A stretch of DNA of 64,000 nt from Anaspis maculata (taxonomy: Eukaryota > Arthropoda > Insecta > Coleoptera > Scraptiidae): assembly GCA_949128115.1 (NCBI GenBank), contig OX421965.1, forward strand, positions 5,385,253-5,449,252, given 5' to 3'. The translations under genes were made by a program, and so were the position numbers. Shown here in pieces: positions 6,593-43,247 of this stretch; position 1 is the first letter of the stretch; each line of letters begins with the position of its first letter. The notes beneath the pieces were generated by a model that was not told the origin of the DNA, ran no database searches, and worked only from the letters and a program-made list of their open reading frames with translations.

Positions 6593-9500
6593 TCAAGAAC
6601 CAGTAACGCACACATCTACATCTACCCTAGCTCCGTTCTCCAAAAGCACCAGAACCATTTCGTGATACCGGCGTTCGACCGCCAAAAACAAAGGTGTTCT
6701 GAACAAGTCGTCGACATTGACATCGTAAATTTTCAGCAGTTTTGGCCTGAATCTCAAAGCGTTGTTTTCGACAGCCAGGAAGAGCAGATTACGTTCATCA
6801 AGGAATGCACCGTTCGGTACTGTTTCTATTCTACTGAACAGAGTTCCGTAATTAAACTTTATGCTGTAGTAGCACAGGGTCAGTTCGTCGCAATGCGTCA
6901 GTTTGTTGAGGTTAAAGTCGAACTTCCGTGATATGACCTCGAGCGAAGACGATGATAGCGATTTGTCGGCATAGTTAATGGAGTCCCATTGGTGTATCGA
7001 ATCGACGGCGAATGGATCGTTGTGTTCCAGAAGACACTCGAGTATTTCCAAGTGTTTGGGATCTTCTTCAGCTGCTGTACGGCTGATGAAGTACTCTGGC
7101 ATAGAAGGCTTTATGAGTTCACGAGTCACACCCCATGACGCTGCTATGTGTAACGGGCTGCGTCCTCCTGCGTCTTTACAAGTAAAATCTTCGCATTTGC
7201 TTAGAAGCTGCGAGTTTTTGTAAAGAACCGCCAGGTGTGCCCCACTGTTTTTTGCTAGGATCACATCAAACGAACACCGTTGAGTTTTTCTTTGAGAACA
7301 TTTAGATGTGTTGTAGATTTCGTGAAAACCAAGAACTTCGCCAAGAACTCTGCGTAGGTCCTGTGCGCAAACACGGCCATTCCTATGCCGTTGACTTTGA
7401 ACACTCTGACTATCAGTTCTAAGGTGTCATCTTCGCCTTTGAAGTCGTCTGACAGTTCAGTACAGTCAAGCTTCAGTTCGTTGAAGTCAATCCTGTCCAA
7501 ACAAGCTTGTAACGCGGCAATTTCGTAAAACTTCAAGCGCGACCTTTCAATGGCTTTGCGAATGTTCGGATGAGTGTTTGCATTTCCCACTTTCTTGAAG
7601 TAGTGATCAAATTTACTTTCTATGAAGCTACGGTAAATATTTGTCACAATCACAATCTTCCCCTGCAAAATTTCTCCGGGATTCTCACAAAATATTTCCG
7701 TCAACATGTACGCTTGAAGCGGGACTCCTGCGTCGAATCCAAACATTGCAATGTTCTTGTACATTTTTTCCAGTACCATTTCAAACTCTTCAGGATCGCA
7801 TTTGTCCTTGAGCTTTTGATTTATGAAGTTTCTCAGATCGGCATGGCGAAAGTGGGTCAAGGTTGAAACGAACGTGTCGGAAGGCGTCTTGTAACATTCC
7901 TGAACAGTAAAAACGACACGCGATCAGTTGTCTGAAGCCGTGTTTTTGGAATTTGCCAACTGCTTCTATGACTGCTCGTGCTACGTCTTCGGAAAGTTCA
8001 TCAAAACCATCCCACAATACAACAACACGATTGGCGCTTGCAAAGCTTTGTGCAACTTTTTTGTCAAAATCATTGGTTACTGCCGAAAAGTACGTGAACA
8101 GGTCAGTATCAACGTCATTTTCGAATAGTTCGAAGTGTTCGAACTATCGACTATCGATTTTGATAGAGCAGTAGCTTTCAGGTGTGTTCACTTCGAGGAA
8201 GTCCAGCATGACTGACTTACCCATTCCAGGGTCTGCGCAGAGTATGTTTAAATTATTTGTAAAATGGCTATCGATTTCTCTATCGCTGACTAAGTGCTCA
8301 TTTTCGTTTTTGCGAAATGGCATCAGCTCATTAATTTTTCCTTTGCTCCTTATCCATTCCAAGCGGCTCTGGTCGGTGAAACGTAGATGATGGATCACGT
8401 TTTCTGAAGAACCCGATATTAGTTGATCGAACTTGGCTTGCTCATTGCAGAATACAATAAGATTTTTGGGCAAATTCCGTTGTTCCAAATAATGGCTCGA
8501 AGGTTTCACACCTGTGAGAATCAAATATTCGTCAATGTGTACAACGGTCACTGATTTATTGTGTTTTCTTAGTGTTGCAATGTCTGATGCTTCTATGACA
8601 AATAATCCGTCACAATGCACGACATCCATCTTAAACAATACTTTCTGTACTGTTCTACCAACGTAATATTTAGGCAAACGCGATTTCAGTTCACCAACAA
8701 GTAGTGTAGCATCAACCACATCCGTAACAGTTCTGTAGCTATGATATCCAAGGAATCATCCAAAGCCACCAAGTCTTTGATTGGAAGTCTTGCGATTTTG
8801 AAGTTTTCAGCAATACGATCGTATAAATGTTTTGGAACATCAACTAAAGTGTTGAAGACCTTCCAGTTCTCGCTCAGTCCATGACTGCTGCCATCCAACA
8901 AGAATTTCTTGCGTTGACCTTGAGTCTTGAGTTGCACAATTCCATTGCTTTTCTTACCGTGTCATTGTATCGGACGGCTAAAAGAACCAAATTCAAATAC
9001 CACGATTTCAACAAATTTTGGCTCGGGAGCAACCCAAATTTAGTCAACAAATCAGAATCTTCCACGGCTGCATCGCTTATAACGCCAACGTTTAGATTTT
9101 CAATAACAGTGATCTCGGAACATTTGACGGCGTCTTCGGACAACTCTCCATTGGCAGTCCTCTTTGTGCCCAGAGGAAAATTCAAAATATATGGGTTCAA
9201 AATCAGTTCCGCTAGTTTAACTCTGACATCATATTTGCTAAATTTGTGAAAACCATAATCGCCTCGACACCAGTTTTTGAAGTACACTAGCACGTGAGCA
9301 CCTCACGAATTTCTGTTTCCACATCTCTAGCGTGCATTTGGTTGGTGAACAGGGCGAACTTTTCTGAAAACTCGGGATCGATTTTACCACCTCGGAATTT
9401 GTACATTGAGTTCACGCCATTGCTTGTGTCAAACAAACACATGGCATCTTTTCTTGTCATCGCTCCAATGCTCTTCGCCACGGTGATTTGCGAATTTGGC

Positions 9501-11787: not shown

Positions 11788-14700
11788 ATGGCTAATCTGA
11801 TACAGTGGAACTGCAATGGCTACTATCCCAGATTAGAACGCATCCAACAGCTAGTTTCTGAACACTGTCCATCAATCCTCTGCTTACAAGAAACAAACCT
11901 AAAAGACAACAACCAGAATCCAAACATATCAGGGTACCACACCTATTTCAAAAATAGGAAAACTCACTTGATTGCTAGCGGAGGAGTCTCAATTTCCATA
12001 AAAAATGATCTACATCAACAAGAGGTACAAATCAACACCAATCTTGAAGCAATCGCTGTATCGGGTCTGGTGGCCAAACAAAATCACAATATGTAATTTA
12101 TACCTACCTCCTAATCTGAATTTTGAACCCAATGACCTAAAAAATCTACTAGTACAAATCCCTTCTCCATTTATACTTGTTGGAGATTTTAATGCCCACA
12201 ATCAGTTATGAGGATCCAAAGTTACCAACAACAAAGGGAAGTCCATAGAGAACATCATTAACAACAGCCCACTTCTATTTCTCCTAAACACGGATAGTCC
12301 AACCCACTTTAATAGACCTATTCGGTGAAAACGAGAGAGACAGACTTATACAGAAATCTGTGTGAGAAAAAAGACACAAAGTGAGTTGCGCGCGCATCTG
12401 AACGACCATCTAGGGAAATTCAGCATGGGGTTTGCGCTCCTGATATTCCCTGTAAGTTTCATTTTTGACAGAGCATGTGGATTAAGACTTCAACTGCCGT
12501 CATTTTGACGTTTACGCTAGTGAGAATTCACTGCTGAATGATGAGGTGACCTCCACTCAACATGGAACAAGATGTGTGCCAGGGCTACCCCTCTAAAGGA
12601 AGGAGAGGCAGAGACCGTGTAACCGCAAAACATACAGGTCAGCAGCATTCCCACCTATTACAGAACATGTATTCCGGGTCAACCTCATGGAAGAAGCTTT
12701 GCATCCTTTGTCACCGACAGCAACTCTTCGAGGGCCTAGAGAACTACGACTGTGACCTATAAATGCTCCCAGAAGGTGACAGTAGCCAAAGACAGGCCGA
12801 CCTGTAAGAATTTGTCACACTATCGCGGATAAAAACACTCGAAGGAACTGGGGGTCTGGGAGCTAGTTACTAGCTACGGTCCGTGGTCCGTGTTTTCCGC
12901 GATCGGGGACTTCTAACCACATCTTGTTGCTTTTAACCACTCTTCTTTCAAGGTGATGTTTGCAGGGATCACGCGTATATACCGTACACCTATCACTTTG
13001 ACTGTCTGACACTTTGACTTTGATTTTTCTAAGGATGTCATTTTTCACCATTTCACCTGCACCGTTATCATGGCACCGAGTCGTGCAGATGCGCGCGCAG
13101 ACCAGGTAAAACTGAATGGGTCTATTGTTCAACGGGAGGTTTTTCATGCATCGATCTAAGTTTCTGTGACCCGCGCATCGGTCCCTCACTTACATGGGAA
13201 GTGCCATCAGACCTACATGATAGCGACCATTTCCCAATCGTAATTAGCCCTAACAAAACCTTCGGTAATCAACGAGACTTTACACCTTTGGAAAAGTGGA
13301 GGAATGCCAAAGAAACAGACTGGGTCAAATTCCAAACTAGTGTCGACGAAAAACTGACAAATTTTCACATAGAAGGAAATACCAACGTCACGGTCGCTGC
13401 TTTCACTAACATACTAACAAAAGCTGCTGAACAATGCATTGGAAAAAAACAAATCACTCACAAACGGAATCCTGTTCCATGGTGAGATAATGAATGCAGT
13501 TTAACCACCAAACAATCAAAAACTGCCTTTAACAGATACAAAAAACACCCAACCATTGACAATCTAATAGAATACAAAAAATCACGCTTAAAAACCAGAT
13601 TAACTATAAAAAATTCCAAAAGACAGTCCTGGCAAGACTATGTATCATCAATTACCCCTACCATCCCTCTGAAAGAAGTATGGACCAAAATTAACAAAAT
13701 AAAAGGACAACATAACTTACCTTATCAAATTCCAGCACTAACTAATGAAAACGGTGAGATCACTACATCTAAAGACGAAATATTTAGTTAGCATCTTAGG
13801 GAACCACTTCTTCAAAACTTCCAGTGACCTACATTACAGTCCTGAATTTCTAAAGATCAAAAAGAAACAAGAAAAAGTCCCTCTGCAATCTGAGCCAACA
13901 GACAAACATGAAATAAACAACCCATTGTCCATAAAAGAACTTGATAATGCCCTAAACGATGTAAAAAATACCTCTCCGGGACCTGACCTGATCCCTTTCT
14001 CTTCTATAAAGAATCTCTTACAACAAGCACAACAAACTCTGCTAGACATATACAACAAAATATGGCTGAAACAAACCTTGCCTACTGCATGGAGAGAGTC
14101 CATAATATCTCCCATCCTAAAACCTAATAAACTTCAAACAGACCCTACTAGCTAGAGACCCATTTCGTTGACATGCACAATGTGCAAACTACTCGAAAAA
14201 ATCATAAGCAATAGATTAAGATGATACCTTGAGGCTGAGGGATATCTGTCACCCAATCAAAGCGGATCCAGGAAAAATTGCTCAACGATAGACAATCTGG
14301 TCAACTTGCAAAATGAAATTCTCGATGCCTTCGCTACTGGTCAAAAACTAGGTGCGGTTTTCTTTGACATAGAGAAGGCGTATGATACCACATGGAGATA
14401 CAGAATTCTTCAGGAACTACTCGAATGGAAGGTTCAGGGCAATATGTTTTCATTCATACAAAACTTCTTGACCGATAGAACCTTCCAAGTTCGAAAGAAC
14501 ACCACATCATCTCAATACATTCTCCATAATGGCATCCCTCAAGGATCAGTACTTAGTTGCTTACTCTTTCTAATAGCAATCAATGATGTGATCTCAGCAG
14601 TTGAACTCCCGATCAGGGGATCATTATATGCGGATGACTTGATGATCTGTTACAAAAACTCAAAGAATAAATGTCTTCAAGATGGTCTACAAAGAGCTCT

Positions 14701-16286
14701 GTCAAGGATTGAATCTTGGGCAATAGGATCCGGTTTCAAATTCTCTTCCTCAAAGTCCAAAATGATAGTTTTCTCAAGGAAAAATAACACACAATCATTA
14801 GTCCCTCTGAAAATGTATGGTTCTAACATACCACAGGTGAATAAGGTAACTTTCCTGGGGATGATATGGGATCAAAAACTGAACTGGGATATACATGTCA
14901 GGTCACTGAAAACTGAATGTTCCAGAAGACTAAACATATTGAAATGCCTTGCTCACCACCACTGGGGAGCTCGAAAAGATCAGCTACTCATGGTATACAA
15001 AGCACTCTTGAGATCTAAACTGGATTATGGCGCCATAATATACTCCTCTGCCTCGAAAACCACCCTAAAAAGACTTGACGCTATCAACAACTCAGCGATG
15101 AGACTGGTCACCGGTGTCTTTAGAACTACCCCAATTGAGTGCCTATTACAGGTCGCTGACGAACATACCCTCGAAATCCATCGAGAACATCAAATGGTCA
15201 ATTACGCATCCAAAATGTCATCCCTACCGGGTAGTTTTGCTTATCGATCTATGTTTACCAGAAAATACCACAACATCTACCACAAGAAACAAAGATTGTA
15301 CCAGCCCTATCATTACAGATTAACCAAAACTCTCAACTCAATGAATCTAGAAGCAACACACCCCAGCATGACCTTTTACAACTTATCTCTTAACTCTTAT
15401 CCAAAGGAATCAACTCCCACGATACTCTATCAAAACCTACATAAATGCATCATAGAACAATATCCTAAAACTCACACCCTATATACTGATGCTTCAAAAG
15501 GCACCAATGGGAATGGAGTGGCTGTTGTGACTTCAACAAGTACATACAAATATTATCTACCTGCAGATTTCAGTATATTCTCGGCTGAACTTTTTGGAAT
15601 AGTACAAGCTGCAGAAATCATTGACCAGAACACGGACAATAAGCACTTTACACTATTCACCGACTCGCTAAGCTCAATTCAAGCAATGCAACAACTCTAT
15701 ACTGACAACCCACTAGTATCAAGTATACAAAACACTTTATCAAAAGCAATCGGAACGGGTAAGCACGTTGAGATCGTTTGGTGCCCATCACACGTTGGTA
15801 TTCTTGGGAATGATAACGCAGATCTAAGCGCCAAAGAAGCTTCAAATACCACAGCGACAGGAAGCCAACCCAACATCATTTTCACAAATTACGACTTGAA
15901 AAACAATTACAAAAAGGCAATATCTGACAAGTGGAATCGCATAAAATCTGAATATAGACCACTTACTATATCCAGGCCCAACAAAACAAAAAATATTCAA
16001 TTATCCAGAAGAGAGGAGGTGGTCATTAACCGACTACTGACTGGACACTCAAAACTGACTCACTCGTATCTGCTTGAAAAAACTAATCCCCCAACTTGCT
16101 CTTCCTGTGCAGGACACCAGATCACGATAGGTACCTCACATTCTGTATCAGTGCATCAAGTATAAAAGCCACAGAGAGACAGCTGGATTCCACGATCGCA
16201 CCTCTCTAACAAAACTAATCGAAGAACACAGTTACAGACCATTGTTGAAATACATAAAAGACATCTCCCTCTATACAGAAGTCTGA
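11788..16286 (+). pseudogene. LINE ORF2: endonuclease, reverse transcriptase, RNase H
   Basis: AP endonuclease: MANLIQWNCNGY start at 11788, LCLQETNL, FILVGDFNAHNQL, and SDHFPIV after the insertion at 12313-13125. Reverse transcriptase: GPDLIPF, the palm motif FFDIEKAYDTTW, NGIPQGSVLSCLLF and catalytic YADD near 14627-14638. RNase H: LYTDASKG, SAELFGIVQA, FTDSLSSI and VWCPSHVGILGNDNADLSA. The C-terminal CSSC motif is followed by a frameshift near 16130, after which the other frame carries the rest of the zinc motif and runs to a stop at 16284-16286. Other damage: a frameshift near 12090; TGA for Trp near 12209, 13484 and 14221; a frameshift near 13790; TAG near 14154. The RT-RNase H part alone is open for 619 codons (14306-16165). 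The element cannot move by itself. Confidence 0.88.
12313..13125. mobile_element. 0.8-kb inverted-repeat element inside LINE ORF2
   Basis: The endonuclease frame stops at a THFN block near 12312 and resumes at STGGFSCIDL near 13127. The insert has imperfect terminal inverted repeats (TAGACCTATTCGG on the left, TAGACCCATTCAG on the right read inward) and subterminal inverted GCGCGCGCATCTG blocks near 12388 and 13090. No transposase is present. The target duplication is unclear, so the superfamily is unassigned. Confidence 0.7.
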
Positions 16287-16614: not shown

Positions 16615-17933
16615 TTTTACGTGTTTGTTTTTGAAAAAGCCTTTTTAAAAAATATTAACTTTATTAAACTGTGAAATAATTTAATTCGTACAAGTTTTAG
16701 AACGTAATAACGGATCGACAATTTATGCGTGCGACGTGCACTCGGTCATGATACAGAAAATTGTGTTGTTCGCTAACTGCATGAAGTCGTATATACCGGG
16801 TGATCATTTAAAAACTATCCACCTGCAATATCTCCCGATTCCTAGTGGAAATGTCTTTGAGCAAAAACAGGTCGATTTTTATATCGAGGGGGACATCTAA
16901 AACATAAATTGGAGAATTTATATCTTGGGCCCCCTCGCCCCCACTCACCCCAACTTTGAAATTTCAAATGACACCACCTACCTTGCGATACGTCAAATTA
17001 AAGAGAATGAAATTCTCTCTCTAAATAAATATTTTCAAATTTTTCAACCTCACCCCCTGTTTTTCCTAAAATTCTCTGAGTGTCCAAGTTAATATTCTTG
17101 ACCTCCATTTCCCTTCATTACAGTAAACGTCATCCTGCACAGCATCGAAAATAAAGATTTTCTATAAAAAAAGTGCCACCCAAATTTACCCCTTCGCTCC
17201 CCCCACCTGACCTCAAAAATTTAAAATGTCAATACCCACTTTGTAATACATCAAATTGAAGAAAATTGAATTCTCTTCCTGAAAAAGATTTTTTCACAAT
17301 TTTTAAAGCTTCCCATCTCCCCCCTAGAATACTCCAGATGGCCAATTTATTGAGGGAGAGGTAGAAAATTTCGAAAAAATTATTTTCGGAAAGAGAATTC
17401 AATTTCCTTTAATTTGATGTATCACAAAGTAGGTGGTGTTTTGTTAAATTTGGGAGTTGAGGTGGGGGAAAGCAAAGGGGGGAATTTGGGTAGCACTTTT
17501 TCCACCAAAAATTTTCTTCTTCGATGCTATCTAGGATGATGCCGACTAAATTGAGAAAAAAATAAGGGGTCCAGAATATAAAATGGGACAGTCAGAGAAT
17601 TTTTAGGGAAAAGGGGGTGGGGCTAAAAAAATTTGAAATATTTTGTCAGAAAGAAAATTCAATTTCCTTCAATTTGATGTATCGCAAGGCAGGTAATGTC
17701 ATTTGAAATTTCAAAGTTGGGGTGAGTGGGGGCAAGGGGGATGAATATAGAAATTTGCCAATATATGTTTTGGTTGTCCCCCTCGATATAAAAATCGACC
17801 TGTTTTTGCTCGAAAAAATACTCACTAAGAATCGGGAGTTATTGCAGGTGGATAGTTTTCAAATGATCACCCGGTATAAACAGCAGGGTGCTAAGTAAGC
17901 AAAACTAATCTTATTCATGACGGGGTCGTAACA
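16615..17933 (-). repeat. 3' LTR of the errantivirus-like element, interrupted
   Basis: Its two parts (16615-16795 and 17877-17933, plus a duplicated TA) rebuild the same 238-bp LTR as 29712-29949. A foldback element sits between them. Confidence 0.9.
16796..17874. mobile_element. Foldback element in the 3' LTR (TA target)
   Basis: It starts CCGGGTGATCATTTAAAAAC and ends with its inverted copy, flanked by TA (16794-16795, 17875-17876). The 5' LTR shows the empty site. Both halves are long imperfect inverted arms meeting near 17335, with internally repeated blocks such as CAATTTCCTT(C/T)AATTTGATG. No ORF is present. TA targets and terminal inverted repeats suggest a non-autonomous Tc1/mariner-group element. 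Confidence 0.88.
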
Positions 17934-17948
17934 CCTCCCCCTTTTAGA
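17934..17948 (-). promoter_or_regulatory. Polypurine tract
   Basis: The minus strand reads TAAAAGGGGGAGG immediately before the 3' LTR start TGTTACGAC, the standard position for plus-strand priming. Confidence 0.85.
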
Positions 17949-18187: not shown

Positions 18188-20140
18188 TCACAAGGCTTTT
18201 CTTCGCTGCCTCGTTTTTCTTGAGACGGCTGCTGCTTCCAGAGGCGTCTCTTCAGTTTGTAGTTCGAGTGTCGGTTGCAACTCGATGTTCCACTTGTGAA
18301 TAGATGTTCTACGGTGTGGTTTTGGATTGATATTGCAAAAGTTATAGATTTTTGCACAGCAACCCCTGTCGTCAGGTCTGGGGTTGTTAGAAGGTAAACT
18401 TTTCATGTAGCCAATGAAGTGGCGGCAACAGCCACATTTACAGCAGATGACTGTTACAATTATTATAACAAAGATGGTCAGGGTCCAGATGGTGGATGCG
18501 CTGAGGTACTTTGTTGCGAAGGGCTCTTGATTTAACGTTTTGAGTTCTTCTTCAAGCTCGCCAAGTTTGTGAGCGGCGACATTTAAGTCGTCCAAGTTGA
18601 ACTGGTTGATTTTAAGTGGTTTTAAATGGAACTCTTCTTTTGATGTTTGTTCCTCGCAGCATTCGAATGGAATTTGAGGGATGAAGTTCTCTTCTGTATA
18701 GTTGGAAGTTTGTTCTTCTTTAGCATATAGTTGATAAATGCCAGTATATGCATTACACCGTTTTTGTAACGTGATGAGTTTGTTGCCCTCCAGAAGTTTG
18801 GTGGTTGTACCTTGATTAGGGCAGGTGTAGGTAATTGCCAACTTTGATGGTAGGACTAGTAACCATTGGTTCTTGCCGATGTACTGAATGTTATGGTTGA
18901 TTACATTCATAATTAGTGGCTTGCATTTGTCGGAGTTTTGGAGTGTCGTGATGAGGATGACCTCACATGGTCCTTGGGTCGAGTCAAGAGGAATTAAATC
19001 TTGACACATGGCGGTTCTGTCGTCCATTTCTTGGCAAGTGTCGAGGTCATGGATCTTGATGTAAGTTCTCTTATCTTTTGATAATGCTATCATCTTTGAT
19101 TCGGGGATGATAGTATGGAAAAGGTTTGTAGAAGGATCTTTGGTTGGTACAGAGTAGAGATGGTAAAGGTCGAAGGTATCCTGATTTATTAAAGGTATTA
19201 TTATTACAAATATTAACCTGTTTTTTGTCTGAAATGCTTGAAGTTTAAAAAGATTTAATAACTGGGGAAGATTTTCCAAAGTGGGTTTGAATGGTAAGTT
19301 ATTTCGCGTTAGATGTCTATTGATGTCTATCAATTCGCTGAGTAAATTTCTAGGTTTAATTATCGATGGGTGGATTATTTTTAATTTCGCAAAGGTTAAA
19401 CTATTGACTATATCAGTAAGTTCTTCTGAAATTAATGTGAATGATTCTAGAAGTTGTTCACAATTATTCATCAATTTTAATTGATGCTCAAAATATTTTT
19501 GACTCCCAAAAAGGGTTTTAATTTCGTTTTCTATTACTTTCATATCTTCGTTGAATGTTTGTTCGTCAATTTGTAATTTTCTAATCGTTTCGTTAAAATT
19601 TCGAATGGTACTTGTTGTGACTTTAATTTGGTCTTTAATTAAGTTTTGAATTTCTGAATCGTCTCTTTCTAATTTGTCTATACATTTGCTAAAATATTCT
19701 CCGTCGGAGGCATCTAGATTTCCTGTTATAAATTTCCATACGGTTCCAACACCGTTTGCAAGTCCTCGTCTTACTCGGATTGTTTCGAATTTAATTTCTG
19801 TTAACATATTATCGATTTTATTTGAAATCGCTTTTAGAATATCAAGATGGGGTTTTATCGTAAGGGAAAAAGTTCGAAATCTTACATTTTCATCGTGTTC
19901 ATCTTTCAAAAGTACAGTTGTTAGGGTATTTAAAATTTGCAAATTATGTTCGTACGTTTCTTGTAAGTGATTAATGTCTTTATACACTACTAGTTTCAAA
20001 ATATCTGAAGTTATTTTTATTTCTCTCTCTTTTTCGTAAAATAGTCCTATGGTATTGTTTAGGTCTTTGATTTGGATATTGGAATAAGAAAAATTAATAA
20101 GGAATAGGAAAATAAAGATTTTAGATGGAGTCTTGTCCAT
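18188..20140 (-). CDS. env: Env-like protein (baculovirus F-like) of the errantivirus-like element
   Basis: This is a complete 650-residue ORF. A hydrophobic signal peptide spans residues 1-20. A furin-type site (RVRR, 122-125) is followed by the glycine-rich fusion-peptide-like region and the LDASDG motif (142-147) shared by errantivirus Env and baculovirus F proteins. A helix-rich region comes next, then many cysteines in the C-terminal half. A transmembrane segment lies at about 549-567, followed by a Cys-rich, then basic tail of about 80 residues. Such proteins sit in the envelope and mediate membrane fusion in relatives. It is the only ORF of this element with no visible break, while gag and integrase are broken and RT is gone. 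Whether it is expressed cannot be seen. Confidence 0.9.
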   Translation of the reverse strand: MDKTPSKIFIFLFLINFSYSNIQIKDLNNTIGLFYEKEREIKITSDILKLVVYKDINHLQETYEHNLQILNTLTTVLLKDEHDENVRFRTFSLTIKPHLDILKAISNKIDNMLTEIKFETIRVRRGLANGVGTVWKFITGNLDASDGEYFSKCIDKLERDDSEIQNLIKDQIKVTTSTIRNFNETIRKLQIDEQTFNEDMKVIENEIKTLFGSQKYFEHQLKLMNNCEQLLESFTLISEELTDIVNSLTFAKLKIIHPSIIKPRNLLSELIDINRHLTRNNLPFKPTLENLPQLLNLFKLQAFQTKNRLIFVIIIPLINQDTFDLYHLYSVPTKDPSTNLFHTIIPESKMIALSKDKRTYIKIHDLDTCQEMDDRTAMCQDLIPLDSTQGPCEVILITTLQNSDKCKPLIMNVINHNIQYIGKNQWLLVLPSKLAITYTCPNQGTTTKLLEGNKLITLQKRCNAYTGIYQLYAKEEQTSNYTEENFIPQIPFECCEEQTSKEEFHLKPLKINQFNLDDLNVAAHKLGELEEELKTLNQEPFATKYLSASTIWTLTIFVIIIVTVICCKCGCCRHFIGYMKSLPSNNPRPDDRGCCAKIYNFCNINPKPHRRTSIHKWNIELQPTLELQTEETPLEAAAVSRKTRQRRKAL

Positions 20141-20661
20141 GATTGATCTGTAACAATTATTTGTTCACAGATGACTAGATAAAACAATAAAGTTCTCAAT
20201 TATGAAATTAGCTGATACGATAAACCAACCTAGGAATTATCGCTAACACTACTAAATTCGTACTATAATTGAATTTTCGGTAAAGCCGAAGGATTTTACA
20301 GTCTGAATCCTAAGATGTTATTCAGATGACAGGGACAATTTGGTGACTTCCAAAATTGTATATCAGGGCAAATCTGAATTTGACCGCAATAAAAAAAATT
20401 AAAATGTTTTCCGTGAGGCGGGGGTTTGGCGGTTAATAAACCCAGCAGTTTTACAGGGAATAGAATTATGTGTATATAATCATAATTATGGGGAAAAAGG
20501 TGTTCTTTGAACATAATGGTTGACGTCTGCCAAACGTCGTCAGAGTTTTTCAAAAATTCTTGTATTGAGTCCTATTTAGTCGCCTTTTACGACACGCATT
20601 TGGATTTACGTCTGCTTTATTCTTAAAGGTCCCAAAACAGCAGGGATTATTTGTTAAATAC
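20141..20661 (-). other. Integrase-env spacer
   Basis: No gene is seen. On the minus strand near 20575-20605 it contains ATGCGTGTCGTAAAAGGCGA, a short block that recurs in many insect repeats. An env splice acceptor might lie here, but I cannot point to one. Confidence 0.4.
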
Positions 20662-21933
20662 CTAGTCTGAGGTATTTGGGTCTTGGTCTTCGTCTGATTC
20701 TATATTTGACGGTTTTATCCGGTCAAAGTTGACAGTCATATATTTATTATTGGAAGTTAGTAGCTCTACGCAATTCGGAGGTAAGAGTCTGGTTATTTTG
20801 TAGGGACCAAGATATGTGGGGGACAATTTGGATTGTCTTGATGGTTTTCTTAAAAACACTGATTGACCAAGTTTGTACTGAGGTCTATTTTCTTTTACAT
20901 GTTTGTCAAAACGTTCCTTTGATTTTTGTTTGGAACTATCGATATTGGAAATGACTTTTTTGTTAACATATTGTGCGTAATTTCTCATGAGTCTCTGGTA
21001 ATCATCTTGAAGTTCTGCTTCATTGGTAAAAATATTATCTCTAGATGGATCAATATGTCCAAAAACAATTTCCTGAGGGGTGAATTTGGTTGAAGCTGAC
21101 TTGCTAAGGTTATATGTTTTTATAGCGAAAGGTAGTGCGTCAACTACAGGTTTATGAGGATAATCGATGTGGAAACTTCTAGTAGAATCCATCAATGTGG
21201 CGTGAAAACGTTCCACTTGCCCATTAGATTGGGGATGATCAGTGGGACTGACAGTTAGTCTAATGTCGTACAATTCGATTAGATTTTTGAACGATTGGTT
21301 CATAAATTCGCTTCCGGCATCTACATGAATTTGTTGTGGTACAGGGTAGTGTTGGAAGTACAATAATAATTTATCAGTAACGCTTCTTGCTTGTTTGTTA
21401 GGAATTGGATAAGCCTGTGCATATTTTGAAAAGTTATCAACAATTGTCAGAAGATGTAACTGGGGATGTACGTCTAGTGTGTCCATGTTTATGTGTTGAA
21501 ATGGTCGTTCTGGTGTTTTTGTAATTACGAGGGGAAAATCTGTGTTTAGCCTATTAATCTTCTATTGATTACAAGTCTGACACCGTTTTACAAATTCTTC
21601 TATATCTGTTTTCATATTGGGCCATAAATGTTGTTCACGTATTCTTCGAAATGTTTCATTGATACCTTTATGTAAATTATTCTTTGAGGAATGTCATTTC
21701 GACATTATTTCGTTCTTTTCTTCAGGCGTTAGGTCTTTTTGCAATTTGATTATATCATGGCAAATATGGAATTTGAAAGTATCAGCGTTGAATAAATGAC
21801 TCAAAATTCTTTTCAATGGTAGGTGATTGACCTTGTTCAAATGATATTCTTTAGGTTCTAAATTTTCTTTGATCTCGTAGAGAAGTCTGAATAAATCTTT
21901 TTGAGAAAGTCTTGATAAATTGTCTACGGGCAA
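20662..21933 (-). pseudogene. Integrase of the errantivirus-like element, two stops
   Basis: All in one frame: a linker (PVDNLSRLSQKDLF) before the zinc-binding region, an HHCC-like domain (LHKGINETF, WPNMKTDIEEFVKRCQTC), then the catalytic core with D in INMDTLD, D in HVDAGSEF and E in NGQVERFH. The last two are 35 residues apart (DD35E). A C-terminal GPY-type module (YLGPYKITRL, FDRIKPSN) follows. Two in-frame stops interrupt it: a TGA near 21701 and a TAG near 21559. The longest open part is 20662-21486 (274 codons). Integrase would insert the cDNA into chromosomes; this copy is broken. The upstream side is cut off by the CACTA-like element at 21950. Confidence 0.85.
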
Positions 21934-22755
21934 TTTGATGAAATATGTACACGGTATAAAATCGGATAAAAGGAATATCTAATAAAAGTTAGATACATCA
22001 TTTTTAGTTACATTTATCTTAATAACCTAGATGAATTATCTTTTTAGTGATTAGTTGATTTCGATAATCTTTCTGTTATAGTTAATTTACCTAATTTTTA
22101 GATAACTCCCATGAATTTGTCTAAATATTCAAATGATTATATTTTACCATATTAAAAAGATAAAGTTACCTCGGAGTTTCGTGAGTCCCTCTCAATTTTT
22201 AGTGTTTTATCTTAAGTAATAAGATGAAATACCTGTTCTATTTATTTAGATAATTTATTTATTTTCTCAAGACAAATAACTAACGAGTTAGAGAAACTGA
22301 TTTCTGTACTTTGATAAATTCCTCTACAGATTTTGATAAATCATCTAAAGTATTAGAGAGTTTTTCGCAGAAATTAGATGCATCCTGTTTTCGGCAACTT
22401 CCGAGTGGTCGAACACGTCTTCGGTTCCGCCTTCCCGTTCCCGCTCATTAGTCTCATTACTCTGATGAGACGATGACCACATATTTGCAGACGCAGACGG
22501 TTTGACGCCACCCTCAACGGAGCAGCGCCAGCGGTGAAAAAGTGCAGTTGTCTTTGTGTGTTTCTCTATGGAGTACTTCTTCGGCAATACCGGCGAAGCC
22601 GACGCCACCGTCACCGAGATTGGAACGACGACCGTTTGTGCCACCGCGCCGCCAACATCATCGGCATCATTGTTGCCCTCCGCTTCCGCGTTGTATTTGA
22701 CGGCAAGATTGTCATTTAAAGCAAGAGGTCTCATCTGGCAAAAATTAAAAGTGCC

Positions 22756-23475
22756 TTTCGACACGGAGGAACTAAAAATCCACGGAGTGTATGGACATTA
22801 TTTTTTCGAGGAGAATTTCGTTCGGTATGGCAAATCAATTAAAACATTTAATTAAAGAACATCATAGATTACTAATGGATTTGTTTGATTTTAATCTAAC
22901 TCCTAAACATCACTTGCTGCTACATTACTCTTTGATAATTCGAACGATGGGTCCTCTTGTAGATTTATGGACGATGCGCTTCGAAGGTAAACATGGCTAT
23001 TTTAAAAATTTAGTTCATAAATTTAGGAACTTTAGAAATGTTGCAAAATTGCTAGCTGTTCAACATCAAAAACACTTTTTTATCACGTGGTCACAAAAAT
23101 TTTTAGAAGAAATTGAAATTACCGTTGGTCCTGTTTTACACATTAACAAAAAAAACCCGCACTGAAATATTAAGTAGTTTCAGTTTAGTTCAAAATCGTA
23201 AGGAATTAGTTTTTGTTAAATGGGTTGATGTAAATGGTACAAATTTTTGCAGAAATAGATTTATCTCTTCTTTTGACGATAACAGTGTCTTACCGGTTTT
23301 TTTTGAAATTAAATATATTTTTCTGTTAAATAGTACGCCTTATGCTGTTTGTTTGTCATGGGATACACTTTGTTTTATGGAACATTTACATTCGTACCAT
23401 ATTTCCAACCAATTAAAATCAAGTAACAGTTATTTTAATCTGACATCATTAGACAACATGCACCATCGTTTTTGA
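22756..23475 (+). pseudogene. CACTA-like transposase C-terminal region
   Basis: Overlapping frames read TEELKIHGVYGHYFFEENF, then KEHHRLLMDLFDFNLTPKHH, GPLVDLWTMRFEGKHGYFK, then after a frameshift near 23155 VKWVDVNGTNFCRNRF and a FFEIKYIFLLN end. The LTPKHH...H, GPL...W.MRFE.KH pattern is what I recall from EnSpm/CACTA-type transposon proteins of animals, in their C-terminal half. The catalytic N-terminal half is not present; upstream 22370-22750 is a GC-rich stretch with no matching frame. The ORF cannot be functional. Family assignment rests on memory of the pattern and on the element's ends. Confidence 0.55.
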
Positions 23476-23796
23476 AAAGCATAATCCATTCGATGAAAAT
23501 ATCGACCTAATTGTTTCTAAACAATCGTTATTTCCTAAGTTATAATATTATAGTAGCAGAGTTTTTGAATGATTTTTTTTTTCAATAAAATAAGTTATGT
23601 ATATTCAAAGCAATTTATCTTTCTATATACCTACCTATAATTTTAATTTTTATATATACAACCATTTGTCTAATTACTTAAGTAATCGTGCGTCAGCTAA
23701 AACTTTTCCTTAAAAAATGCAAATCTGAATTTGAGGTTATCCTATCTTTTCGTCTGTTTCATAGGTAATGTATAATAATGACTGTGGTCTTTTTCA

Positions 23797-23845
23797 GGTA
23801 TGCAGACAAGTTTGTTCCTAGGTTTAACAAACTTGTCTGCATACC
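23797..23845. other. Perfect 20-bp hairpin in the CACTA-like element
   Basis: GGTATGCAGACAAGTTTGTT (23797-23816) is followed by a 9-base loop and its exact reverse complement (23826-23845). Pairing extends a few bases outside (CTTTTTCA / CGAAAAG). Confidence 0.85.
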
Positions 23846-25362
23846 CGAAAAGAAATATACCTTCATATGAATCTTAAGGACGGCGTCACCCTAGAGGCAG
23901 ACTTATTCAGAAAGTGGTGGAGTGAGGGAGACGGAAGCTTTTGGACTTATTCGTACGCCAAAAAATGTAAGAAAAATTATAGACGCTTAAAATGTGAATA
24001 GCTAACAAGAGAAATGTTTGTTTGTTGTCAATGTCAATTTTTATTTTCAAAAATCGTACGAATTCCAACGTCTATAACGTTTCATGCTTTTCCTAATAAT
24101 ATTTTAGAAATGTATGACTGTTTTCACAATCTTTTTATTCATTGGTTTTGCTAGAAGCTTGCGCTAGAGTTTTCCTTGTTTTTGAGGTTAGGAAACTACA
24201 ACCTTAATAAACTAAATCCTATTTATCTCATGGGAGTAGGAGGGACTTTGTTATAGGGTGGGCCAAATTCAAATGATTTAATGATTTATCACGGAAAAAG
24301 AAAATCGGGGCCCGCAAGAGGTCTAAAGCCCCCCCCCCCCCCCGGTAGTGCTCCGTGGAATTCGTGGAAACATTGTTCAGGTAAGTGTGAGAGAACTTTT
24401 AGAAAAACTGTACTTCCCGTCAACCACAAGTATTTCTTGTATTACGAATTTTGAAACCCCAGATTAGGAACGTAGGAATTCAGGGACGTAGGTCGTAGGA
24501 AATTCCAAAATAATGCAATCTCTTTATTAAAGTCAAGTGGGTAAAAAACTACTTATCATTCTTTTGAAAATCCGGGTCCTTGAAAAATTCCAGATTCTCG
24601 ATTAGTAAGTATGAATAAAATTTCATTCGTTCATTTTGGACTAGGTTTTTTTTATAGGGCCCACTACATTCTAGGGTAAGCCCCCCCCCTCCACTTCACT
24701 TCCTCCACTTCCTTCACATCCTACGCCCTAGGTTTTCTAGGGTGAGCCAACTACATTCTAGGGTAAGCCGGGCCCCCTGCCCCCCCCCCCACTTTCTACG
24801 CCCATGAATTATCTAATAACCGTAGCTGATAGTATTTAATTACGTGGACGAATCATCTACTTACCTTTAGTACTCATATCTAAAACTATTAGTTAATGGT
24901 ATCTAAACAGATAGACGAATCAACTATTTATTAGTGAGGCAATGTATCTAATGTTATTTGGCAATTCATCTATACTGCATATTAAAAGTAACATTATGTG
25001 TTAGTTGATTCATCTATATTTTAAGATACATTGACATTGAGAATTATCTGTGTAATTCACTTTAAAATTAGGTAAATCATCTATTTTGTTATGGTGAAAA
25101 ATCATCTTAAAGAAAAGATAAAAGTGTAACTATTAAAAATTAGAGAAAATCATCTGAAAAAATTAATGGACCTATATGAACTATTTTTTTAGATGATTTT
25201 CATCTAAAATTTTACACCGTGTAGTATTTTCGATTAGTGACCTTTAAGCTGTTTTTGATAGTCAATGTTTCAGTTAGATTCAAATTTCTTTCTGTAGTAC
25301 ATGTATCTGCGACATAGGTTGCAATATGGGGTGTATCCTCATTTTCATTATTGGGAATGAAT

Positions 25363-26810
25363 CATAGACAAGGACAAAAGTAGAAGAGGCAAGATACCTG
25401 CGCGGCTGTGTAATTTGTAGGCCGGCCATTTTGATTACATAACGGTTTTTCCTGGCGGCAATTTTAATTATGACAGGTGGGTGACAGTACTGACAGTGTA
25501 CTTGATGACAGCTACGAAGTTTTAGGTTAGATTGATTTGTTGTGATCGAACTTTCCTCGGCGCTTAAATTTGGTTTTGTGTAAAACATAACAATAGAATT
25601 CAATGTTGAGTGTTATTCAATGTTCGTTTCCACGAATTCTACTTTTTGACCGGATATTATTTATATTCCTGGGATGCATTGCATTATTAATGCATTGTCG
25701 AGTGCATTGTACTTGATGACTTTTTGTTAAGAAAGTGAAGCAAGAAAGCCGCTATGGAAGTATGGAGAATGGGGTCCGCAGTTCAATCTCCACTTAGAAG
25801 CTGTGAAACAGATATCGAGGCCTCTGTGTGAAGTGTTCGTTTGGCGTTTTTGTCTGTGTAATAAGTTTGATCGAACCTGATCGAACTCAGCTAATGCATC
25901 AATACAGGATGTCTTGTTATACCTATCGAAATTTGCAAGAATATCAAGCGATTGATGAACCCAGAGATGGGAAGATATCCTTTCCTTTCATACGTAACAC
26001 TGAATTTAAATAATCAAATTTCACTCCGGTAACTAAGTTTTGTTTTTAGTTTTCCACGGGGTGATGGGTTTCGATTGTGGCTCGAGGCAATTGGAATGAT
26101 GAAGGAATAACTTGGAAACGTCTTAAAAGAAAGGCTCGGTGCTGCTGATTTGTTCGAGGCATTTCGAAGTAATGTGAACAAAATTTTCTCCAGACTCCCA
26201 GGACCCGATTCAGAACCTCGTTTCGGACAATGATATTTTGAAACAAACAATTCTATCTTAATTGAAAGAACTGTAAGATGCTATTTGAAAATAAGATTAG
26301 GTGCACAATCTAGCCAAAACGTAAAGCGAAGAGCTGATTCAGTGTGATGTTCAACGAACACTTTCAAACTTGTATTATTTTATCACAAGTAAAACATTGA
26401 ATATTTTTCTTGAAATTTTATTCTGTAGCTCAAATTAAGCACATATCGTGGGCCTTATGCCCATACGTGTATGGCCCATACTCGCAGTCGGTCTCCGATT
26501 GTCCCAAGGACTTGAGACATGCGAAGTCGGAGATCGAGCGAAGTATTGACTATGAGTATGAGGATTAGTCAAGGCCGTGAGCAGAAATTCTTGAGTTATT
26601 TGTTTCATTTACAAAGTATAGCCTACAAATTGTCTCATGACTGTCATCTGTTTTGACGTCTGTCTATGGTTTTGACTCGCGCGTACTCCCCCCATTTGAA
26701 TTGCCGCCTTGGAAAAACCGTTATGACCTAAAAATGGCGGACCCCATGCGATATCGGCTGAAATGGATGCGCAGTGGTTCTTCCTTCTTCTACTTTTGTC
26801 CTTGTCTATG
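25363..26810 (+). mobile_element. 1.45-kb element with 8-bp target duplication, copy 1
   Basis: Inverted ends CATAGACAAGGACAAAAGTA are flanked by GAATGAAT (25355-25362, 26811-26818). It sits inside the pol ORF of the retroelement and supplies its present stop codon. It is closely similar to 39006-40485 in opposite orientation. The small ORFs (25280-25603 minus, 26014-26250 minus) look non-functional. An 8-bp duplication with ends starting CA points to a non-autonomous P- or hAT-group element. Confidence 0.88.
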
Positions 26811-28404
26811 GAATGAATGCTATTATATTTTTGTGGTGAGCAAGTGTCACATAGTCGTTTGTCTCTTTTATATAATCAAAATTTATTGAAGGTTGTTCGT
26901 TAATAAATCTGTCATATTCGATTTCGAATTCGTAGTCTGGATTTGCATCAAAATCAATTAAGTCTGGTGTCTCGTTACGATTGATTATTGACTCGTCTTC
27001 TTCATCTGAAGATAAAAATGGATTTGCTGTGATTGGATTTATTCTGATACGCGAAAGTGCATCAGCATTTTTGTTTGAGAATGAATTTATTTTTACTGGT
27101 AGTTGAACTACCTCGATCGTTCTAGGCGATATATGAAAAATTTTCTTCAAAGTAGTATTTGGTTCTTCGAACTCATAGATATAAATTTTAATCCGACTAT
27201 TATTAAAAATTCCTTTTATCATAGAAAGAACGTGCTTCCAGTTTAAGTTATCAAGACCGCATCCGAGCTTTGGCAGTGCTAATTCAGCGATTTGATTTTC
27301 TTCGCATATAACCCGCAAGTTCATTAATGCTGTGTTGATAGAATCGTACGTGGGTTCATCTTGAAAGCGTTCCTTCGTGATAAGGTGAAAAATTTCTCGC
27401 GTTTCATTTACGCTCGAGAAAAAGGAATAAGCAACTTGTCCTACTATCTTTTGCTGAGCTAGCAACCCGTCGGTATTGTGTGGATATTTTATTGCAATTT
27501 TTCTTGCTAAACCTTGGCTCATTTTAAAATCTTGAGACACTGCGTGCCCAATTGGAATGTTATTGGGTGCATCTAAAATGTCACCTCTTATGAATTCGAT
27601 TGAAAATTGATTAGAAAATCCATTTATTGGATTATTATTAGAGAGACTCACGGCGGAGCTCGAAGAATTCCCGAAGGAAGTATTTAAATGATTCTTATCT
27701 GAATCGACCCTAAGGCTATTATTTGCCTCGGAAATATTTTTTCTTTGATTCTCTACTTTGAGAGAAGTATTTTTATTAGAAGATTTATTTATAGGATTAT
27801 TATTAGAGAGACTCACGGCGGAGCTCGAATGGTTCCCGAAGGAAGTATTTGATTTTTTAAATGAATTAGTATCGACTTGGATTGAACACTTTGGTTCTAT
27901 TGCTTTTTTAGCAATTCTAAGATCCACAGAGGGAGTATGAAATTGTCGATTTTCTTCGTTGATTATACGCGGTTTATGTACCGGGTTTCTTGTATTATTT
28001 TTATTAATGGATTCACAATGATTTAAAGTAGTGAGAGAAGTATCACCGTTCCTTGCATAGGAAAATAATTGAATTTCAGGATAGTCTTGAATTGAACAAA
28101 ATAGTTTTCTTTTAGGAAAATCGATAACACAATTGAAATTTAAAATAAAATCCATACCCAAAATTCCGTCGAATAATCCAAAGTCGATAGGTGCAACATG
28201 CATTGTGTGCGAATTGAATTTACCGACTTGGTATTCGTAAACATGATTGGAAAGTACGGGAATATTTTCAATTCCGGTTATATGAATATCTTTGCTTTGG
28301 ATTTTACTTTCGGGTGAAATAATATTTGGGTGAATCAAACTGATAGAGGCACCACTGTCTAAAAGAAGTTTAAAATTATTTTTTGTGTCTAGAATATAAA
28401 ACAT
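26806..28404 (-). CDS. Protease-macro domain pol fragment (RT and RNase H missing)
   Basis: This is a 532-residue ORF. Residues 12-26 hold a retropepsin active site (LLLDSGASISLIHP) and 81-86 the ILGMDF motif of the protease core. Residues 110-265 are a Ser/Asn-rich linker with a duplicated SAVSLSNNNPIN block (195-206 and 250-261). Residues 267-411 are a macro domain closest to TARG1/OARD1: RGDIL (273-277), SQDFKMSQGLA (290-300), LITKERF with the catalytic-type Lys344, and GCGLDNL with the catalytic-type Asp385. TARG1 enzymes remove ADP-ribose from glutamate and reverse terminal ADP-ribosylation. Residues 446-453 read NADALSRI, the motif that normally closes RNase H. So the RT-RNase H block is missing with the frame kept. 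The C-terminal stop lies in the 25363-26810 insert; the frame continues beyond it at 25354. Confidence 0.88.
   Translation of the reverse strand: MFYILDTKNNFKLLLDSGASISLIHPNIISPESKIQSKDIHITGIENIPVLSNHVYEYQVGKFNSHTMHVAPIDFGLFDGILGMDFILNFNCVIDFPKRKLFCSIQDYPEIQLFSYARNGDTSLTTLNHCESINKNNTRNPVHKPRIINEENRQFHTPSVDLRIAKKAIEPKCSIQVDTNSFKKSNTSFGNHSSSAVSLSNNNPINKSSNKNTSLKVENQRKNISEANNSLRVDSDKNHLNTSFGNSSSSAVSLSNNNPINGFSNQFSIEFIRGDILDAPNNIPIGHAVSQDFKMSQGLARKIAIKYPHNTDGLLAQQKIVGQVAYSFFSSVNETREIFHLITKERFQDEPTYDSINTALMNLRVICEENQIAELALPKLGCGLDNLNWKHVLSMIKGIFNNSRIKIYIYEFEEPNTTLKKIFHISPRTIEVVQLPVKINSFSNKNADALSRIRINPITANPFLSSDEEDESIINRNETPDLIDFDANPDYEFEIEYDRFINEQPSINFDYIKETNDYVTLAHHKNIIAFIP
27172..27606 (-). other. 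TARG1/OARD1-type macro domain
   Basis: This is the domain part of the ORF at 26806-28404 (residues 267-411). Length, motif order and both active-site residues agree with the TARG1 family of ADP-ribosyl hydrolases; the 1''-phosphatase Poa1 group is a more distant alternative. I know of no errantivirus with this domain, so either the element captured a host gene or a host gene became fused by rearrangement. Confidence 0.85.
27618..27860 (-). repeat. Internal duplication in the protease-macro linker
   Basis: Two nearly identical stretches of about 65 bp (27620-27685 and 27785-27850) contain ATTATTAGAGAGACTCACGG and encode the repeated SAVSLSNNNPIN block. The near identity at DNA level implies a recent duplication, in frame. 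Confidence 0.75.
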
Positions 28405-28439
28405 TTTGTGTTGGCTATCATTGGACTTTGCATTTAAAA

Positions 28440-29404
28440 TTACATTTCGGACTCGCTCGCGTGCGTCTGGGTTACAGGAGACTGGACGTCCGAGGAATCC
28501 AGCTCCGCATCTTCGTTTTTTAAATAATTTACGCGAGGAGCGGGATTGTTTGTGAAATTATTGTTTGGTCGATTTTGAAAATTACTTTGACCTGAAAAAT
28601 TTCTATTTTGAGGATTTGCATTATTGTGACTCGAATTATTTATTCTTCTGAAGCAATTTACTATTAAATGACCAGGTTTTTTGCAGTAATTGCAGAATTT
28701 CGCGTCTGGTCGTGGATTTGGATTACGAGCATAATTGCTCGGTCCTGCTTGAGGTGAAACATGTTGGTTATGGTAATTCTGCCGTGGAAAGCTTTTAAAT
28801 GTTTTCGTATTGTTTTGACTGCTGCGCGTTGATCTGAGGTATGCAATATTTTCTTCCTCAAGTATGAGTTGGGCGGCTTCGCTAATGGATAATGGTTTTT
28901 GTGCTCTTATTAATTGACCTAAGGGGTCATTTAATCCGGCTAATAAAGTTTTCAGTCCGATCTTTTCGTGTGACTCGATTAAAGTGTTTTATGTAATGGG
29001 TCAATTTCGTCGTCGAGTCGAACACTCGACCTTAATTTTGTTAATAAATTTTCTATTTTTGTTACGAAGCTTCGCGCTGTTTCAGTCGTTTTTTGGAAAG
29101 AATTTGTGAGGTCTCTGACGAGAGCTTCGGTATCCCTACAATCGCCAAAGTGGCCTATTAAAAGGGGCCTTATTGCTTCCCAGGTTGTTAGATTCCTCGA
29201 GGATATGAAAGTTTTAGCTTTTCCAGTTAGTTTGGATTTAATTAGGAAAACAAGGACATTTTCTTGTCCTTCTTCGATGTTTTCCGTTGCAAAATTACAT
29301 GCTTCTATAAAATCATTCAGTAAGGCTTGTTCGCCATCGAATGAGGGAATTAAATCTTTAAGATCTCTCAAAGAGAGTTGAATTACGTTATCACCTTCAG
29401 CCAT
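28440..29404 (-). pseudogene. gag of the errantivirus-like element, frameshifted
   Basis: The first frame runs from ATG at 29404 to a stop at 28979 (141 codons, starting MAEGDNVIQLSLRDL, with a capsid-like TGKAKTFIS and a helix-rich middle). The protein then continues in another frame (IESHEKIGLKTLLAG) to 28440 and includes a CCHC zinc knuckle, CNYCKKPGHLIVNC, at 28653-28694. The two halves fit together as a normal gag with matrix/capsid-like and nucleocapsid parts, broken by one small indel near 28980. Gag would form the particle and package RNA. The shift is not at an obvious slippery site, so I read it as damage rather than programmed frameshifting. Confidence 0.8.
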
Positions 29405-29692
29405 TTCGAATTATCACAGGTAAATAATATAATATCAATACACTAAACAAGATAAAAAGGATATAAAATGGAAAGGGGAATACCCCGAAACAAACAATGA
29501 TGATTATAAAAATAAGTAGACTTACTACTTGATGGAAATTGTTGCCGTCGGAGAACTTCAGGACAGGTTCCGCTGGAGCTTCCTTGGTTTGATTACAGAT
29601 GTAGGCTGCTAGGCTGAAGTGCTGGAGCACACCACTTAACACTTTTTTACGTATAAAATTTTCAAAAATTATTTGTGTGAAATGGGCCTAAC

Positions 29693-29710: not shown

Positions 29711-29711
29711 T

Positions 29712-29949
29712 TTTTACGTGTTTGTTTTTGAAAAAGCCTTTTTAAAAAATATTAACTTTATTAAACTGTGAAATAATTCAATTCGTACAAGTTTTAGAAC
29801 GTAATAACGGATCGACAATTTATGCGTGCGACGTGCACTCGGTCATGATACAGAAAATTGTGTTGTTCGCTAACTGCATGAAGTCGTATATATAAACAGC
29901 AGGGTGCTAAGTAAGCAAAACTAATCTTATTCATGACAAGGTCGTAACA
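29712..29949 (-). repeat. 5' LTR of the errantivirus-like element
   Basis: It is 238 bp, starting TGTTACGACC (minus strand) and ending ACGTAAAA just before the primer binding site. It aligns to 16615-17933 once the 1.08-kb insert there is removed. Confidence 0.9.
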
Positions 29950-42041: not shown

Positions 42042-43247
42042 ATGAGATGAATTCCTCATGAATTTGTCATGAGATTGTTCACATCAGTAGTGGTTCCGAC
42101 GTTCACTTATGGGGCAGGGCTGTGGGCTTTGAGGTACTTGGAACAAACAGAAAGGTTTCAAAATGATTTCTTCAAAAAAGTTCTCTACTTACAACGATCA
42201 ACACCAGGATTTATGTAATCAGGTCAGAGACAAAAACACCTAAGGCCGGCTGTTACATGGTAAAACTTGCACTGCGTTATTTGATAAAAGTAAGGGGACA
42301 GAGTGAGTCGCGTTACACATCAAAAGCTCTCAAGCGATTAGTGGAATTAGACGCATGTAGCACTAATTATGACAAGACTAACTGGTACAGCGTTCTTGAA
42401 GATTTTCTCCTGAAGAATCTGCACATAGACCTCGTCGACTTTGATCTGAATCGCGACAGCGTGAGGGGCCTTCTTGACGCGTATAATTCTGATAACAACA
42501 TGCAGGACTGGAATAGGGTCTTGTTGAACACATACTGTCCGTATTATGAGAATTACCACTCTGCCGATCCCTTTGTTGATTCGAGTGAGTACTACCTGAA
42601 CATTGACCTACCTTTGAAGATGAAAAGAGTTATCGCGCAGATCAGAACATCGAACAGACTGACTTTGACTATGTATTTGGATGCAGTTTCTTACTCGATA
42701 GGGGTGTCGGAATTGTGCTCACTGTGTAATCTGCAGCGCGCGGAGGATGTTAATCATATTTTGTTCGAGTGCCCGCTCTATTCGGCATATCGGGGTGGGT
42801 TTCAGTGCACAGGGGATGTTTCCGAGAATTTGAATAGTTTAACGTTGAGAGAAGCTAGGGAAATCTCTAGGTAGGTATATGGCAGGTGCCATGAAGATGA
42901 GATCCTTTGCCAGGAACGAGTAGGTCTTTTAATACGTTGCTCCTCATTCATCAGTGATATCTAGATACCTAATTTTTCGCATTAAGATGTTTTACTTGTA
43001 AGATTCATTCGTAATTCGTCATTCGTCATTCGTAAGATTTGTACCTGTGCTTGTTGGAGTTATTATGATCATTATTTTTGCCTTTTGACGTTCCTCTTTT
43101 GTTGCAACTGGCACTGTTGGTATTTTTTAATTGTTTTATTTTGTACTTGTATGTGATGTACCTATTTATATTTATGCCATACTCCTGCCACAAATTTCAT
43201 TATGTAAATTTTAAAGGCAATAAAGCGAATTTGAATTTGAATTTGCC
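42042..43247 (+). mobile_element. 5'-truncated LINE with target duplication
   Basis: It is flanked by TTTCTTCATC (42032-42041 and 43248-43257). It carries the end of an ORF2 and a 3' UTR ending in AATAAAG and a short TGAATT tandem, a common LINE tail. It lies in the right arm of the Tc1/mariner-type transposon; the left arm shows the site without it. Confidence 0.85.
42060..42874 (+). pseudogene. LINE ORF2 C-terminal fragment
   Basis: Before 42257 a decayed stretch reads VVPTFTYGAGLWALRYLEQ, the usual post-RT region, broken by a TAA near 42219. From 42257 a 205-codon open frame continues to 42874 with LALRYLIKVRGQSESRY, a long helical part and the end motif LCNLQRAEDVNHILFECPLY (Cys/His knuckle typical of LINE ORF2 C-termini). 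It has no reverse transcriptase core. It differs in sequence from the I-like LINE at 10-16 kb, so it is a second LINE family. Confidence 0.8.

Follow-up and report, generated by a model that had tools for sequence, protein, structure and literature searches.

A TARG1-type macro domain in the Pol of errantivirus-like retroelements of the beetle Anaspis maculata

We analysed a stretch of 64,000 nucleotides from the genome of the beetle Anaspis maculata (GenBank assembly GCA_949128115.1, contig OX421965.1, positions 5,385,253 to 5,449,252), here called the window, and found in it a provirus of an env-bearing, errantivirus-like retroelement whose pol frame contains a TARG1-type macro domain. The provirus belongs to the family that we designate A. 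By mapping pieces of a longer copy onto the window, we placed it at positions 29949 down to 16615 on the (-) strand, as are all the parts described below, in the order 5' long terminal repeat (LTR), broken gag, protease-macro, RNase H end, integrase, env and 3' LTR. Aligned over 240 positions, the two LTRs share 237 of them, and a 4-bp target duplication, CCGT, stands on both flanks.

The 5' LTR (29711..29949) matches, at 95.4%, the LTR of 240 bp that a longer copy has at L031:3385-3624. It is followed by a gag region with a broken frame (28405..29410), whose start was inferred from the gag frame at position 494 of locus L023; L023:1-1500 maps to 29903-28405 at 98.1%, and the fragment 28979-29404 scores 19.6 bits against Pfam Retrotrans_gag, below the cut-off of 24.1. 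The retropepsin (28102..28380) was recognized in translation by its motifs DSGAS and ILGMDF, with Pfam scores of 19 bits for gag-asp_proteas and 14.6 bits for RVP_2, both below the cut-offs. A Ser/Asn-rich linker, also read from the translation (27607..28101), leads to the macro domain (27172..27606). Beyond it lie the RNase H end (ADALSR) with the linker towards integrase (26810..27076; 96.3% to L032:386-652), another piece of the RNase H-integrase linker flanked by two nested insertions (25222..25362; 100% to L032:644-784), the integrase part of pol (20451..21945; 99.1% to L032:783-2277, with rve at 45.1 bits in the open reading frame (ORF) 20662-21486) and an open env of 650 aa (18188..20140; Baculo_F 157.7 bits). 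The 3' LTR is split into a first part (17875..17934; 98.3% to the family A LTR) and a second (16615..16795; 96.2%) by a 1079-bp insertion. Altogether, four insertions interrupt the provirus, at 25363-26809 (1447 bp), 21946-25221 (3276 bp), 20189-20450 (262 bp) and 16796-17874 (1079 bp). The first of these is bordered on each side by ATTCATTCC and has the termini ATAGA/TCTAT, and the last has the termini CCGGG/CCCGG; both are DNA-transposon-like. Pfam scans of the small ORFs near the element gave no match, and the window holds no tRNA, so that the primer-binding site stays unmatched to a tRNA.

In the original prediction, the open frame of this element ran from the macro domain directly into ADALSRI. 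Alignment of the window with both parental stretches revealed that this joint sits on a 9-bp repeat, AATGCTGAT (27061..27069), which is present in both. Reverse transcriptase (RT) and most of RNase H have been removed between the two 9-bp repeats, and the RT of the longer copy has no match anywhere in the window. The direct run is thus a deletion product, which rules out macro-ADALSRI as the domain order of the family; longer copies read protease-macro-RT-RNase H-integrase-env. Four more loci, each on another contig or distant from the window, show the same joint with 98.7-100% identity across 150 bases, giving five places with the window. A sixth place of equal extent (C7:4224834) matches only 69 bases of the joint. 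The deletion form seen in the window has therefore been copied in its turn.

The closest solved macrodomains are those of TARG1. Five of the six distinct PDB sequences that match the window domain at E<=1e-3 are C6orf130 (E 3e-24 to 4.2e-24), the sixth being DarG-like (E 7.1e-7), and the fold is of the TARG1/OARD1 type. The catalytic Lys and Asp are present in all five of the families described below, and both are retained in 49 of 50 family A loci and six of six family B loci. The element domain almost certainly belongs to the TARG1 class and is probably catalytically competent. Human TARG1 (OARD1, C6orf130; ALC1-like class) is a free-standing cellular enzyme, whereas the window domain, 34% identical to it, is part of a retroelement polyprotein. 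Its nearest predicted viral structures are Kadipiro virus VP8 (BFVD A0A8E0KJF2; E 3.1e-16, 35% identity) and several arthropod virga/negev-like proteins, including thrips-associated ones. These carry a structurally similar macro domain but come from RNA viruses that are not reverse-transcribing; arthropod RNA viruses may often carry TARG1-like domains.

Family A is abundant in the genome. When the window ORF was used to search the genome at the DNA level, the macro part was matched at 96-100% in all 40 scored places (of 113 candidates). A protease-macro-RT-RNase H query from L023 was matched over all 3000 bases at 97-100% in 27 of 40 scored places (of 177 candidates); among the others, four have the linker partly doubled and nine are truncated, and the macro part is present in all 40. 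A protein search gave 70 family A rows among the best 150 of 411 candidates, and a limpet OARD1 query gave 150 further rows among the best 150 of 482. Combined, the macro matches amount to at least 220 rows at no fewer than 217 places spaced more than 12 kb apart. Many of the other macro places, which were surveyed by frame length, lie in open frames of identical lengths (1341, 1437 and 1482 aa). More copies with the macro domain between protease and RT therefore exist in the genome, and neither of the findings that the original prediction had named as fatal to it, a lack of such copies or a host gene joined by rearrangement, was made. The doubled linkers lie between protease and macro (query 1-951, then 708-3000) in the copies at C6:37399235, C2:96194912, C3:77892910 and C6:69179589, and two of the four have 1653-aa frames.

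We read the sequence of about 50 family A loci (some overlapping one place), six of family B, one of family C (macro region), one of family D and one of family E, the reading of the last two being confined to the surroundings of the macro domain. The genome holds at least five families with this domain, which takes three positions and always lies inside Pol. In family A, Pfam matches and translation give protease-macro-RT-RNase H-integrase followed by env. Families B and C have the macro domain between RNase H (NADALSR) and integrase, again followed by env, and family E reads RNase H-macro-integrase zinc finger in a single frame. In family D, the macro domain opens the pol frame, ahead of a protease (37.5 bits) and an RT with YIDD. 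The single layout originally proposed, protease-macro-RT, therefore holds for family A and is incomplete for the set, while the placing of a TARG1-type domain with its Lys/Asp pair within pol of a multicopy env-bearing errantivirus-like family is borne out. In A, B and C the domain lies inside the pol frame, with no sign of a recent capture linked to gag or env. One copy each of families A, B and C has an LTR pair (240 bp at 98.75%, 191 bp at 100% and 209 bp at 100%, respectively); none was seen in the fetched flanks of two other copies, nor in the first two window-copy flanks compared. A 4-bp target duplication was found at the B copy (TACA) and the C copy (CACT), and none was seen at the A copy L031/L032. 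The Baculo_F env scores 165 bits in A, 124.6 bits in B and 40.7 bits in C, for which a 359-aa piece was available. The family B locus L008 has acidic Pro-rich repeats (EPDDPLP) between macro and integrase, which are gap-variable among copies. Errantiviruses, which are gypsy-like and have a baculovirus F-type env, share LTRs, gag, protease, RT, RNase H, integrase and the Baculo_F env with families A, B and C, a likeness drawn from gene content, while D and E are candidate members; the families here differ in their added macro domain in Pol. We know of no reference errantivirus with a macro domain.

Selection on the macro domain was gauged from the ratio of nonsynonymous to synonymous polymorphism (pN/pS) within family A, leaving out segments with stops or gaps (47 of 50 loci were kept for macro). 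This ratio was 0.35 for protease (21 distinct intact segments), 0.38 for macro (30) and 0.31 for RT (13), and 0.80 (26) and 0.50 (12) for the flanking linkers, the former being the Ser/Asn-rich protease-macro linker. When the family B loci L003-L007 were compared with L008, the ratio of nonsynonymous to synonymous substitution rates (dN/dS) was 0.13-0.51 for macro and 0.51-0.88 for the linker, with one value undefined. By these ratios, the macro domain appears to be constrained about as much as protease and RT, and the linkers less.

The window macro domain alone gave eight candidates in a database of 5.8 billion proteins, none at E<=1e-3; a five-family macro profile did find matches there. 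A pol-based query scored on the family B macro domain returned one protein, P0122, among 57 candidates, a search of limited sensitivity whose single match says little about the spread of the layout. P0122 is a protein of 1208 aa encoded on a public contig of 7227 bp. Its RT, RNase H, macro and integrase follow the order of families B and C, and its macro domain is 41% identical to that of family B. A second protein, P0089 (251 aa, 1011-bp JGI contig), has an integrase H2C2 zinc finger and, behind it, a TARG1-like macro domain, which would be an additional arrangement, though the contig is too short to judge. OARD1 of the mussel Mytilus coruscus (P0002) has a partial second TARG1 unit in tandem. 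In IMG/VR, 71 loci carry a related macro domain, and none of these matched the A or B RT or integrase (tblastn, E<=1e-3).

Among A, B, C and P0122, the RTs (50-70% identity) are more alike than the macro domains (33-54%). This pattern is reversed for family D, which is 27-32% identical to these four in RT and 36-44% in macro. Because D is the outgroup to A, B, C and P0122 in RT (1999 of 2000 bootstraps) but not in macro (0 of 2000), its macro domain was not inherited with its RT and goes back to a separate capture or an exchange. A weaker hint of the same kind suggests that the family E macro domain also has a history apart from its pol, with 51-54% identity to the others in RNase H and 41-51% in macro. 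In the macro tree, built on 58 rows and then on the 54 that remained once P0089 and three long viral rows were taken out, B and C group together firmly (98/88), E stands beside them with weak support (79/87), and A and D form long branches. The host has two macro genes of its own (L001 and L002), which we take to be MacroD-like and GDAP2-like, respectively. Its own TARG1 was not recognized with the limpet OARD1 query, for which the best 150 of 482 candidates are all non-A places, many with pol-sized frames; a split host gene could rank below these. TARG1 is reported to be patchy in invertebrates and lost in the honey bee (PMC4245714).

On balance, we lean towards the view that Gag-Pol carries a de-ADP-ribosylase of the TARG1 type, which retroelements have recruited more than once and which would undo host ADP-ribosylation early in the element's cycle. 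Since it is made as part of Gag-Pol, the macro domain would be packaged in the particle, where it may stay tethered or be released through protease cleavage in the flexible linkers, and it would enter the next cell or nucleus along with RT and integrase. There it could remove host-placed ADP-ribose from element proteins, from chromatin near the integration site, or from the ends of element RNA or cDNA, and the gain would be escape from a block to reverse transcription, integration or expression that depends on poly(ADP-ribose) polymerases (PARPs). All three kinds of substrate lie within the reported range of TARG1, for which PMC7050489 gives activity on acyl esters, on modified proteins and on nucleic-acid ends that bear ADP-ribose. 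Several observations weigh against this proposal. The window copy is defective, with RT deleted, the frame broken and four insertions. The catalytic Asp is lost in one of 50 family A loci, the loop around it is altered in P0122, and Pfam scores for families A, D and E are near or below the cut-off. The exclusion of stops and gaps biases all family A segments towards constraint, variant counts are small, and a stop interrupts the macro domain in three of the five loci compared in family B, which fits decayed copies and also relaxed constraint. Finally, a single clade of all six retroelement macro rows has an approximately unbiased test p value (p-AU) of 0.167, so the tree neither shows nor rejects one origin.

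The domain could instead be a reader: by binding ADP-ribose or poly(ADP-ribose) it would hold the integration complex on PARylated chromatin and so serve, next to integrase, as a targeting module. The macro domain does adjoin integrase in three of five families, and the ALC1-like macrodomain class includes readers (PMC7050489). It is distant from integrase in A and D, however, and the Lys and Asp kept in all five families would be needless for a pure reader, which makes this explanation rather unlikely. Somewhat less probable again is a role confined to nucleic acids, with the enzyme clearing ADP-ribose from element RNA or cDNA ends so that reverse transcription and integration proceed. ADP-ribose on 3' and 5' phosphate ends is removed by TARG1 and other enzymes, and it has been suggested that such marks could flag transposon or viral RNAs (PMC7050489); thymidine-linked ADP-ribose is a TARG1/DarG substrate (PMC9411070). 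The present evidence does not separate such substrates from proteins, and animal enzymes that mark element cDNA are only putative.

Retroelement capture of host sequence is common, the window copy is dead and some copies have stops, all of which would suit a passenger that was captured with host RNA and hitch-hikes without a selected function. We disfavour this as improbable; constraint on the domain is like that on protease and RT and above that on the linkers, macro is present in all 40 scored family A places, and the same domain class recurs in five families at three positions. The appearance of ADALSRI right after the macro domain was unexpected, and the window copy has undergone rearrangement, so that a misassembly or local rearrangement fusing a host gene with a protease ORF had seemed conceivable. 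This explanation is refuted by the many copies on different contigs and by the intact CCGT duplication and near-identical LTRs around the window element.

The idea of a retroelement with a macro domain has a precedent, since macro-domain ORFs occur in fish epsilon-like endogenous retroviruses (PMC4977317, citing Basta et al. 2009). Those are likewise macro-bearing retroelements, but the domain lies in additional ORFs, the hosts are vertebrates and the macro class is not given in that account. Our literature searches found no errantivirus or other Ty3/gypsy element with a macro domain, and no word begins with 'macro' or 'ADP-ribos' in the main text of PMC12992720, which appeared in 2025 and deals with insect endogenous retroviruses. 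Among viruses, macrodomains have been described chiefly in RNA viruses, which use them against ADP-ribosylation. Those of the positive-strand coronaviruses, alphaviruses and hepeviruses are MacroD-type (PMC7050489), while the domain here is TARG1-type and in a retroelement. TARG1-like homologues exist in many viral genomes, few of which keep all needed residues (PMC4245714); the elements here keep the catalytic dyad.

That env-bearing retroelements have in Pol a catalytically equipped TARG1-type domain, apparently constrained and acquired on more than one occasion, speaks for ADP-ribosylation acting as a pressure on animal retroelements, perhaps where interferon-type PARPs are lacking. The presence of many virus-like elements with a built-in TARG1 in one animal genome suggests that the ADP-ribose mark matters in the contest between element and host. 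More tentatively, and with somewhat less than an even chance in our estimation, particle-borne TARG1-type erasers may have been taken up repeatedly by distinct Ty3/gypsy lineages, at different places in Pol, within one animal lineage, with ADP-ribosylation acting there as a general brake on retroelements. The question can now be tested, as the enzyme should be expressible alone and macro-bearing and macro-less families coexist or can be compared between genomes.

Elsewhere in the window, on the (+) strand, there are three pieces resembling long interspersed nuclear elements, at 14306-16165 (RVT_1 81.6 bits, RNase_H 38.7 bits), 3944-4612 (RVT_1 45.3 bits) and 42257-42874 (zf-RVT 25.9 bits). An ankyrin-repeat ORF lies at 6593-7264 on the (-) strand (Ank_2 47.6 bits).
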